NCBI GenBank assembly: GCA_010356995.1 | Contig: ML996693.1 | Span: 868,001 to 932,000, forward strand | Reading direction: 5' to 3' | DNA from: Trichodelitschia bisporula | Taxonomy: Eukaryota; Ascomycota; Dothideomycetes; Phaeotrichales; Phaeotrichaceae | DNA length: 64,000 nt | In this document: in pieces, positions 22,354 through 54,617 of the stretch | How positions within the stretch are numbered: the stretch's first letter is position 1 | How the letters are laid out: each line of letters starts with the position of its first letter | The notes under the pieces: generated by a model | What the model was told of the DNA's origin: nothing | Databases searched by the model: none | Seen by the model: only the letters and a program-made list of their open reading frames with translations | Translations under genes and position numbers: made by a program

Positions 22354-24770
22354 ATGCATCTAAACTCCAAACCCATCCACGAGGCTTCGGATGCAGACTC
22401 GGAGGCCTTCCCATCGGACCCACCATCACCAACGATAGCTTCCAATGACCCTAGACCCCCACCTCGTCTCAACCCGCACGAGTACTACTCCCATCACCAG
22501 TCCTTCGACGACGCTATATACCGGTGCTTCGATGAGAACATCTCCCTAATGGACATGATAGAGTCCACAGCAGCCGGCCCGCAGCACGAGCACGACCACG
22601 ACCACGACCACGACCCCTCGTGCCCTCCCGCCGCCGTGTCCTGCGGCGTGGGCCCCGCGTGCCACATCCCGTACCCGTGCGACGACGACCACTGTACGGG
22701 GGATGGGTGCGACGGGCACTGCGGCGACATGTGCGAGGAGCTCTGCGTCGAGTCCTGCGATGCTCCTGAGTCCTGCGATGCCCCCGAGCATTGCGACGCC
22801 ATTTGTGTCGATACCCACTGTACCGACGCCCATTGTCCCGACACCCACTGTAGCGATACACACTGCCCCGCTATATCGTGCGAGAGCTCATCTTGCGCCA
22901 CGAGCACCTACGTCCCGTGCTTCGATCCGGCATGCAGAGCCCCGACCCCTTCCTCTGGCGATGGCAGAAGTCCCTTCTCTGGGGAGGGTAAAAGCCTGCA
23001 GGACTGGATGTTGAACCCGGACACAACCCTGTTGAACTCGGTCGCCTTCCCAGGGTTCCCGGTGCAGAATAGCACGTGGGATTTGTATACGTTGCCATGC
23101 GGATTTCCATCCGCTCCGCACCCTGGCTCTGTGCGGGATAGAAGCTATGACGAGAACTACGCTCGCCATGTGCATAACTGTCCGCTACCGCACTCTCCTT
23201 TGCATTCTGCGTGGCGGCCGCAGGTATGGGCGCAGGCGCAGACCTCGACGCAGACACCAGTACAGGCACAGGCCCATATACCGGCGCAGATCTATACACA
23301 CACGCCAGTGCAGACCTATACACAGATGAATAGCTATATGCACATGCAAGCACACACGCAGGCAGAGGGTCAGGGCCAGAACCGGAGCCAGAACCTGAGC
23401 CAGAATCAGAGCCTGTTCGGGACGCACAGCGAGTTCTTGAGGAGGATGGGGCTCAGCCAGAACCTGATGCCGCGCGAGATCCCCTGCGACCCGATTCACG
23501 GCAGCCAGAACCAGAGGGAGGGCCAGAGCCAGGGTCATGGCCAGGGCCAGGGCCATACCCAGAGCCTGAACCAGCTGCAGAGCCAACAGCATATCCCACC
23601 GCAGCCCTTCTCGTTCGACACACGCCAGTGGCCGAACCACCTCAACTTCCACTCCACCCCCTTCTCCCAGTCCCTGTGGCCGGCGCAGATGGCACACTCG
23701 CCAAGCACCTCGCCCTACAGCAGCGCCCACCATACGCCCACCACCAGCACCCTCTCCTCTCCCGCGCAGCCCCTCACCCCTCGGACCATTTCCCACGCCC
23801 CACTCCCTTCTCCCGGCCCCGTTCTACCTGGCGCGGCGGTAAGACCACTCTCCACGCCATCGCGCCGCTCCACCGCAGTGCCCTCCCCAGCGCTCACATG
23901 CCTCTGGCGCATCGATGATGAACACGGCAGGACCAGGACGTGCTCCGCCACCTTTGATACCCCTGAGATGCTGGACAGGCATATGGACACACATAAGGAC
24001 AAGGTTGGCGGGGCGCTTGTGTGCCGCTGGGATGGGTGCGAGCGCGAGGGCAAGCCTTTTATGCACCTCGGGAAGATGCGTCGACATGTTAGGGGGATTC
24101 ATACCCGATGTAAGTTGCACCGGTTTGAGGATGAAGATCGAGGTTTTTTTTTGGGCGGGGGGGAGGGACTAATGTGCGAACAGATCATTCATATCAATGT
24201 TCCGCCTGCTCGAAGACGTTTACCACCTCTGAACAGTTGCAGAACCATGAGACAATTCATACCAGGGCGAGGCGGTTCAAGTGCCCGCATTGTGAGGATA
24301 AGAGCTTTGCGACGCGGACGCAGCTTTCTACCCATTTGAGGACGCATACGAATGAAAAGCCGTATAAGTGTCCGTGTCCGGGTTGTGAATATCGCTCCGG
24401 GGATGTGAGTACCTGTATTTTTGTTTGCGAGAGGGGGGGGTTCGGGCTAACGGACGGGGGTAGTCGTCGAACTTATCGAAGCATGTTCGGAATAAGCACA
24501 AGGATATGCGACCTAACGGACGGGGGTAGTCGGCGAATATGTCGAAGCATATTTCAAATGATCATGAGGGACGTACGGGCTAACGGATGGGGATAGTCGT
24601 CAAGTTTATCGAAGCATCGTCGGAAGCATGAGGGACGTGCGGGTTAACAGACGGGGTAGTCGTCGAACTTGTCGAAGAATATTCCCCATGAGCATGAGGG
24701 CTTGGAGAAGAAGGTGGAGCTGGTGAAGCGCCTGAAGATGGCGGGGAGAGTGCGGCTTGAGTGGTGGTGA
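22354..24770 (+). CDS. Multi-C2H2 zinc-finger transcription factor with tandem alternative last exons
   Basis: Exon 1 is 22354-24109 and exon 2 is 24184-24404. The last exon can begin after any of four acceptors (see the separate entry), giving 680, 676, 675 or 695 residues. N-terminus: a Cys/His-rich block (residues 90-194, 21 Cys, including seven spaced exactly five apart). Then come Gln/Ser-rich low complexity (about 290-420), Pro/Ser, and five C2H2 fingers from about residue 515. The first two fingers have the CxW-type spacing (CRWDGCEREGK) seen in zinc-responsive Zap1/ZafA and Zic/Gli-like arrays. The others are classical (CSACSKTF, CPHCEDKSF, CPCPGCEYRSGD plus helix). A zinc-homeostasis role is an inference from the finger layout and Cys-rich block only. 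The 74-nt intron 1 (24110-24183) restores a Tyr codon in TRYHSYQC and has a GACTAAT branch. Confidence 0.8.
22804..22896 (+). repeat. 15-bp coding repeats giving a C-x4-C ladder
   Basis: Seven cysteines (residues 151, 156, 161, 166, 171, 176, 181) sit exactly five residues apart, most preceded by Asp-Thr-His or Asp-Ala-His. The DNA shows near-repeats of a 15-bp unit, so the block grew by tandem duplication inside the reading frame. Confidence 0.85.
24405..24770 (+). other. Four tandem 3'-splice-site/finger-helix cassettes
   Basis: After the GTGAGT donor at 24405 the motif (C/T)TAAC...GGGGTAG occurs four times, with AG ends at 24463, 24529, 24596 and 24659 (period 66, 67 and 63 bp). One slightly variant copy ends GGGGATAG. 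Each AG is followed in the same phase by TCG and a zinc-finger helix: SSNLSKHVRNKH, SANMSKHISNDH, SSSLSKHRRKH and SSNLSKNIPHEH. Cassettes 1-3 keep both His ligands and end in their own stop. For cassette 1 the stop is the TAG of the next acceptor; for 2 and 3 it is the TAA inside the next branch motif. Cassette 4 has Asn at the first His position and carries a 24-residue basic tail to TGA at 24768-24770. The resulting introns would be 59, 125, 192 or 255 nt. Confidence 0.85.
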
Positions 24771-42298: not shown

Positions 42299-44475
42299 CT
42301 AACCTGAATTCGCAAAGTCCTGCGGCCCATGATTCGCAAAGTGGTACACTTTAGGCTGATCCGCTCCGCGCTGCGACTGCTGCCCCGTCGTTGATGACGG
42401 CGCATACTCATGCACTGAAAAACCAGCCTGCACGAGCGCAGGGCCCTCAGGGAGCGGGAGCATGTCCCAGTATTGCTGCTGCTGTTGCTGCTGTTGCTGC
42501 TGTTGTTGCTGCTGCGCCTGCGCCACCATCGGCAGCCCGTGAGGCACCATACCCAACCGCACCGGGTTGCTCATCTGCAAGTCCCCGGCAGAGTTGAACA
42601 TGGGCACCTCGGGCCACTGCATGTGCTGCTCGGCAACCATGGTAGCATCCGGCAGCGATGGCCTGCGCGCATGTCCCTTCTCCTCCGCATAGGCCAGCGG
42701 AACGGCACGTGAACCGGACATCAGTGCCCCGGGCGCAAAATGCTGCTGCATCGCGGGTGCCGACTGCGGCGGCGTGTCGCGGCACATGTCTTGTTGCTGC
42801 TTCCCGAAATAGTACTGCGCCGCGACTTGATGCGTGAACAGCGGCGTTTGAGGAGGAGAAGCCGACACGTTGAGGAACAGCGGGCTATGCGCAGGCACGC
42901 TGTTGACGCCGGGGTCGACAGAAAACTTCATACCACTCTGCCACGGAAAAGGTGCCTCGCTTGGTGTCAAAGGAGTGGGAGGAGCCAAACCGCCAGACAG
43001 CGGTGGCGCCGTGCCAGGCGTCGACAACGACAGCGAGTAGTTGGACTGATGGCGAAACTTGGGCGATGATGCCGCTTCCGCAAAGTTAAGCGCCATGGGT
43101 GAGCGCTGACCCGGGCCGGCCTTCGAGATGCGGCCCGACGAACGCACGCGGTGCAGCGGATGACCCGGTGCAGCGAGGTTGGCGTTCGCACCGGGCGAGG
43201 GCATGCTGCCGGCATGTGGACCACTGCGCAGAGCCAGACTGGCTGGTGCCTGCTTCTGCCGACGCGTAGCAAGGCTGCCGCGTTGGCTCGGCGGCTTGAA
43301 GTCCGGCTCACTCGCGCCATTGCGAATTTCAACACTGTCCATCGACTGGGTCAGCGCTGATGTAGACGAGTTACGCCGTCCAAACTGTTCCATCCCATGC
43401 TCTTGCTCTTGCTGATCGTTTGGCGACACGGCTGTCAGATAGGGAAGCAGTGCCTGATCCAGCTCCTGCTGCCCGCACTGCACCTGCTCCGACGGCCAAT
43501 CAGACCCGTAATTGTGCGCCGAGGTCGAGTCGAGCGGATCAAGGTGGGGGCTGTCATGCTGAATGGACACTGAGAGCGCCGGCTTCTCATCCCAGTGAGG
43601 AAGTGAGTAAGCTGCCGTCATCTGAGGCATGGTGTTCGGGCTGCTCGATTTGGATTTGGAGAGCGCCGTCGTGTCCGGAGTCATGGTGTCTGGTGTGGAG
43701 ACGGGTAAGTTGTTCTCAGGCTGTGTAGCTGCCGTTCCAGACGAAACCAGATACTGGTAGCCCATGTGCTCCGGTACCTGCATGAAGGACATCTCGTGGG
43801 AGTTCTCAATGCCCATGTTCGGTTGCGCAAACATGTCATCAAGGGAGTAATCCTTAGGCATTGGCGGACAGCGATCCATCATCTGCGAGTAGGCCGAATC
43901 CTCCAGGCTTGCAATCACCGTCTCTTGCGAGCAGGACTGTGTCGAGGGCATCGATACGGCGGGATTGTACTCTTGAGTAGCAAAATCGTGCCCGCCGTCT
44001 TTGGGCCCAGACGGCATCTGGTCGTGGAACTCAGTCGTGGGCAGCACAACATTCGGGTTGAAGACGAAATACTCCTGCGGCACCTGCCGAGGCGTAAACG
44101 AATGCTGCGTGAACCACGGCGGCGGGACAGCCGGCACCTGGTAAGCGGCTGAGTGGTGTTGGAAGTTCGCGAAGTACGTCGCGTACGCGTGCTGCTGCTT
44201 TTTGGCGTCCTGCTTGACCTTCGCCCGGCGGTTCTGGAACCAGTTCTGCCTGATGGTTAGCGTGACCCTTCAACCTGACCCTTCCCATTGCAACCCACGT
44301 TAATCTTATCGAGCGGCACGCCGAGCGACTCCGCATACCCCTTCTTGGTGGTGGTAGTCGGCTTATTGTTTTCTCGGAAGTAGCGCTCCAGAATATCGTG
44401 CTGCTCCTTGGTAAGGCGAGGCTTGACGTCGGTGCAAGCCTGCGGCAGCGAGGGCTGGTGATTTTGGCGGTCCAT
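42299..44475 (-). CDS. Homeodomain transcription factor with polyQ
   Basis: Two exons (44475-44299 and 44245-42299) encode 707 residues. The homeodomain lies near the N-terminus: PRLTKEQHDILERYFREN, the turn PTTTTKKGYAESLGVPLDKIN, and recognition helix NWFQNRRAKVKQDAKKQ. The 53-nt intron (44298-44246) interrupts the domain at KIN/NWF. A GTGGGT donor and the second CAG of the acceptor are needed; using the first AG would break the frame or the domain length. The rest is disordered: Pro/Ser/Met-rich, with a run of about 15 Gln encoded by CAG/CAA at 42474-42515. The frame ends FANSG at a GGTTAG that also looks like a donor (GTTAGC), so a further 3' exon cannot be excluded. Regulates development in known fungal relatives; targets here unknown. 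Confidence 0.85.

Positions 44476-54566: not shown

Positions 54567-54617
<51 letters not shown>

Follow-up and report, generated by a model that had tools for sequence, protein, structure and literature searches.

In the isoform systems of Drosophila fruitless and lola, the alternative fingers lie on separate 3' exons. These genes provide C-terminal zinc-finger isoforms, as described in an excerpted account of them (PMC7027472). A different route to new splicing outcomes is found in a potato RdRp gene, in which, according to the excerpted report (PMC4974935), a boundary-crossing tandem duplication copied a branch site together with its acceptor and recruited a cryptic GTAAG donor, creating a new intron; this case involves one duplication, has RNA-seq support and has copies that differ at ten nucleotides. 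Among fungi, alternative 3' splice sites account for 23% of events and intron retention, the commonest class, for 61%, and such 3' sites share with the present locus the arrangement of one donor and several acceptors (PMC3925392, in excerpt). NAGNAG sites resemble it in being closely spaced tandem acceptors (PMC8055015, in excerpt). Among the matches listed in the literature, which comprised titles and the starts of abstracts with few subscription papers in scope, there was no report of fungal tandem acceptors giving alternative zinc-finger halves.

The locus described here lies within a probably fungal DNA stretch of 64,000 nucleotides, the whole of which is referred to as the window. A profile search of its finger region identifies the gene at 22354-24770 (+) as encoding a C2H2 factor, since the zf-C2H2 model PF00096 matches the 167-aa finger region containing unit 1 at 61.8 bits over four stretches (cut-off 25.2). 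By family membership the product is probably a transcription factor that binds DNA and regulates genes. The features of the gene and of the repeat array at its 3' end are as follows, the start at 22354 being taken as the first ATG in the open frame.

22354..24109, + strand: exon 1, with a His-Asp and Cys-rich N-terminal part, a Gln-rich middle and the first two finger-like units
24110..24183, + strand: first intron, 74 nt, GTAAGT ... ACTAAT ... CAG
24184..24404, + strand: exon 2, in which two regular C2H2 fingers are followed by the opening half of the last one; it ends ...CPCPGCEYRSGD
24405..24463, + strand: last intron in the acceptor 1 form, 59 nt, with donor GTGAGT, branch-like GCTAAC and acceptor TAG
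24447..24502, + strand: unit 1, comprising SSNLSKHVRNKHK as well as a branch site and an acceptor; open from 24464, with its stop at 24527-24529
24513..24568, + strand: unit 2, comprising SANMSKHISNDHE as well as a branch site and an acceptor; open from 24530, with its stop at 24581-24583
24580..24632, + strand: unit 3, comprising SSSLSKHRRKHE as well as a branch site and an acceptor; open from 24597, with its stop at 24645-24647
24644..24698, + strand: unit 4, comprising SSNLSKNIPHEHE, which has lost the first His, as well as a branch-like TTAAC and an acceptor
24699..24770, + strand: tail ...GLEKKVELVKRLKMAGRVRLEWW*, read in the acceptor 4 frame

The N-terminal third of the factor (22354-24109) has a His-Asp repeat run followed by a Cys-rich stretch, in which units such as ESCDAPES and DTHCTDAHCPDTHCSDTHC recur. 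The finger region also scores 26.1 bits against the Zap1 first zinc finger model PF21816, under the 27.2 cut-off; that the factor could be a metal-responsive regulator is a guess. The window is eukaryotic in content and probably comes from a filamentous ascomycete. Elsewhere it encodes Mre11 (best solved matches 7zr1 and 4yke, which we take to be Chaetomium structures), a HIRA/HIR1 protein and a Dis3-like nuclease, and its genes have short introns with CTAAC sites. No RNA families at the gathering threshold and no tRNAs were found in the window, and a bacterial promoter and terminator scan of it was uninformative for the C2H2 gene. An unusual run of 47 G at 54569-54615 may be an assembly or sequencing feature.

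The organization of the array is revealed by a repeat search, which recovered one family of four direct copies at 24435-24688, after the last donor at 24405. The copies are spaced 66, 67 and 63 nt apart, and copies 2, 3 and 4 share 74%, 83% and 66% identity with the first. This agrees with the first-pass annotation, which had described four units of about 66 bp, each with a branch-like site and an AG acceptor; more specifically, a branch-like YTAAC and a TAG acceptor occur in all four units, the former as CTAAC in units 1-3 and as TTAAC in unit 4. The layout is that of a putative alternative 3' splice site, with at least two acceptors, each accompanied by a branch site and AG, facing one donor. 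Allowing up to three mismatches, the 19-nt core TAACGGACGGGGGTAGTCG has three matches in the whole window, all of them in the array (units 1-3), and none of 100 shuffles contained three or more; unit 4, which has a 1-nt gap there, is missed by the pattern. The array is absent from Tandem Repeats Finder output at score 50. Because 27 of 65 aligned columns vary among the four copies, the duplication is not recent, which disfavours the earlier suggestion that recent duplication alone could explain the array. The 67-nt spacing means that the copies are not all in one frame, and an in-frame protein repeat is thereby ruled out; unit 3 is 3 nt shorter than the others between its two His, a difference that keeps the frame. 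The array junctions fall within runs rich in G, an exonic GAGGG and an intronic GAGAGGGGGGGG, and slippage between short similar stretches is therefore a plausible start. Pattern searches for relatives of the gene gave five matches in a virus contig collection and 46 in prokaryote genome contigs, none of which was confirmed, and the unit-core DNA pattern had no match in the virus contig collection; for a fungal gene compared with virus and prokaryote collections this is unsurprising.

Splicing the gene in silico from an exon 2 end at 24404 to each of the four acceptors yields last introns of 59, 125, 192 and 255 nt, whose final bases are 24463, 24529, 24596 and 24659. The acceptor 1 form stops at 24527-24529, the TAG of acceptor 2; the acceptor 2 form at 24581-24583, within branch site 3; the acceptor 3 form at 24645-24647, within branch site 4; and the acceptor 4 form at 24768-24770. 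The corresponding C-termini are GD-SSNLSKHVRNKHKDMRPNGRG, GD-SANMSKHISNDHEGRTG, GD-SSSLSKHRRKHEGRAG and GD-SSNLSKNIPHEHEGLEKKVELVKRLKMAGRVRLEWW. The coordinates and peptides first given for the four cassettes were thus reproduced, as were the two His and the stops in the next unit's splice signals of cassettes 1-3, and the missing first His and longest tail (to 24770) of cassette 4. The tail GLEKKVELVKRLKMAGRVRLEWW is presumed to be the gene end that predates the duplications. Retention of the last intron (24405-24596) would instead extend the open frame as far as a stop at 24594-24596, giving a 722-aa form with two LTDGGSRR-like repeats and without the last finger half; this form was judged a by-product.

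In the numbering of the C2H2 helix, the usual contact positions are -1, +2, +3 and +6. An Asp codon ahead of the last intron supplies position -1, and all four units have Lys at +6. Units 1 and 4 agree at every contact position (-1 D, +2 S, +3 N, +6 K), unit 4 being like unit 1 except that the first His is missing; unit 2 changes +2 from Ser to Ala and +4 from Leu to Met, and in unit 3 the sole contact change is +3 Asn to Ser. Thus, the claim that the last finger differs among forms in its DNA-contact residues holds for one position each in units 2 and 3 and fails for units 1 and 4 and for the constant -1 and +6. The units differ more in the short tails that follow the second His. Two His in canonical places occur in units 1-3 only, and the second His is kept in all four, unit 1 using a synonymous codon. 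Scored alone against PF00096, the last finger of units 1, 2 and 3 reaches 22.0, 17.9 and 22.4 bits, all under the 25.2 cut-off; that of unit 4 has no PF00096 match, zf-H2C2_5 being the zinc-finger model that it matches best (12.2 bits, E 0.14).

For the acceptor used, the direction of duplication and the ancestral tail, we infer a history that we regard as probable, in which an old duplication of the intron-exon boundary left acceptor 1 in most use and units 2-4 mostly as 3' UTR, with occasional distal variants. Long ago, a stretch of about 66 bp, running from the 3' end of the last intron into the beginning of the exon that follows, would have been duplicated in tandem to give four copies. 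As each copy would bring its own branch site and acceptor, four acceptors would compete for the donor at 24405, and a transcript would normally use one of the four because the internal donors are mostly poor. The spliceosome would mostly take acceptor 1, which lies nearest the donor and offers a 59-nt intron with a branch-to-AG distance like those of other likely introns; the product would carry the complete last finger SSNLSKHVRNKH and stop in the acceptor of copy 2. Occasional splicing to units 2 or 3 would yield near-equivalent finger variants from what is otherwise mostly 3' UTR, and unit 4 would have kept the presumed old basic tail and lost a zinc ligand.

The intron comparison behind this account used six likely introns, hand-picked among the 46 candidate rows that a pattern scan returned. 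They are 47-74 nt long and have the branch 10-14 nt away from the AG; in unit 1 this distance is 13 nt. One of them, 44246-44298, has outside support in reading KINNWFQNRRAKV, a homeobox motif, and the other five stand on signals alone; the long open frame next to 44246-44298 matched no Pfam family. The scan required 40 open codons on each side and a length of at most about 154 nt, and since these limits meant that it returned none of the four last introns, it is uninformative on the rarity of 192- or 255-nt introns. On a donor matrix built from the same six introns, whose own scores of 5.4-8.3 are therefore not independent controls, the donor at 24405 scores 7.4. The array contains 14 GT sites, the best being 24573 (5.44) and 24637 (4.59), for which the following acceptor is only 24 and 23 nt away. 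In each of the intervals 24573-24596 and 24637-24659, a fair donor (GTACGG and GTGCGG, respectively) is combined with a branch-like YTAAC and a TAG acceptor; at 24 and 23 nt they are probably too short for splicing. Folding of the RNA from 24405 to 24680 gave a z of 0.99, 162 of 200 shuffles being at least as good, and so does not suggest a structure that draws distal acceptors near. Intron definition, a model proposed for plants, has been invoked for the prevalence of fungal intron retention (PMC3925392, in excerpt), and such a mode would favour the near acceptor. From sequence, acceptor 1 is most likely dominant, with units 2 and 3 being minor isoforms or 3' UTR.

How far units 2-4 have been maintained is the point on which the readings diverge. 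A stricter form of the boundary-duplication account, nested within it and adding nothing to its probability, would have acceptor 1 alone at work and units 2-4 as untranslated remnants whose intact motifs are luck; we give it appreciable but lesser weight. The first-pass annotation had argued against decay from units that are open and phase-matched. However, the phase match is automatic, being inherited with the duplication because each copy brings its own AG|TCG, and in a neutral simulation (a star tree from the consensus of the four units, unit 1 included, over 56 columns, with 39 in the pN/pS significance runs) all four 13-codon frames stayed open with a probability of 0.40. Decay also fits the lost ligand of unit 4 and the differences from consensus of units 1-4 (3, 9, 7 and 8), unit 1 being nearest as expected under selection on that unit. 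Against it, and against the boundary-duplication account more widely, YTAAY and AG were kept in all four units with a neutral probability of only 0.04 (0.015 with open frames), and the variable columns are clustered: 13 of 44 columns vary from branch to first His and at the second His versus 14 of 21 elsewhere (p 0.005), and 11 of 38 from branch to first His alone (p 0.014), both values applying to functional blocks named after the alignment was inspected. A permutation of the best contiguous 38-column block without prior naming gives p 0.11. Also counting against the boundary-duplication account is the last finger of unit 3, which does no worse in Pfam than that of unit 1.

The same observations favour real alternative splicing, in which units 1, 2 and 3, and perhaps not 4, would be used at useful levels and would give last fingers and short C-termini that differ slightly; this we consider rather unlikely. 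Neutral probabilities for its other features are 0.70 for at least three first His, 0.27 for four second His and 0.59 for a hydrophobic +4 in four, and 0.001 for all features jointly with open frames, an after-the-fact bundle. Pooled pN/pS in frame 0 is 0.56, the lowest of the forward frames (the others being 0.81 and 1.08), which points towards constraint without being significant. pS exceeds pN over the 13 codons (0.39 versus 0.22) and in the helix (0.37 versus 0.13); however, the excess falls inside the neutral range (p 0.09-0.35 and 0.06-0.22, respectively, by assumed transition share). One reverse frame, at 0.57, is on par with the finger frame; antisense coding was rejected as an explanation, the similarity showing how little power 13 codons have. 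Alternative splicing must also contend with contact residues that are nearly unchanged and with distal acceptors that need 125- or 192-nt introns past an intact proximal site. The further proposal that acceptor choice exchanges the half of the last finger that reads DNA, with selection on both splice signals and finger, is less likely again. Motif retention, column clustering and the second His in all four units hint at translation of units 2 and 3, either today or over a long past period. Constraint on the array is hinted at, not demonstrated.

Exonic donors might instead pair with the acceptor of a later unit, removing one or more further introns, a course made conceivable by the potato RdRp gene, where the same duplication layout made a new intron (PMC4974935, in excerpt). 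The pairing of 24485 with 24529 would give a 45-nt intron in phase 0, although donor 24485 scores 2.3 versus 5.4-8.3 in the controls. Donor 24573, whose 5.44 equals the weakest control, would form an 87-nt intron with acceptor 4, and the resulting chain, SANMSKHISNDHEG-LVELVEEYSP, has a two-His finger with a different short end; this route, however, requires a transcript that first used acceptor 2, past acceptor 1. Among the 48 chains enumerated (further introns of at least 38 nt), joining the unit 1 finger to the old tail needs a donor scoring no more than 2.3 followed by one of no more than 0.7, and intron gain is considered very improbable. An assembly or sequencing artefact is still harder to credit, as differences at 27 of 65 columns are not expected of an assembly duplication.

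Compared with the potato RdRp gene, the array consists of four strongly diverged copies with at best one fair internal donor. Its acceptors differ from those of ordinary fungal alternative 3' sites in arising from a repeat, each with a homologous coding stretch. NAGNAG acceptors, in the excerpted description (PMC3250501), are a few nucleotides apart, whereas those here are separated by 63-67 nt and have separate branch sites. Even with acceptor 1 alone in use, the locus would offer a natural series of boundary duplications whose possible fates include isoform, 3' UTR, intron gain and decay. If the distal acceptors are used, DNA-binding half-fingers in a fungus would have been diversified through acceptor choice, and if the swap reading is true, the array would be a compact counterpart of the insect zinc-finger isoform systems without separate exons. 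The fruitless and lola isoforms each have their own whole fingers (PMC7027472, in excerpt); the present array, known from sequence alone, has half-finger units of about 40 nt, competing acceptors and near-identical contact residues.
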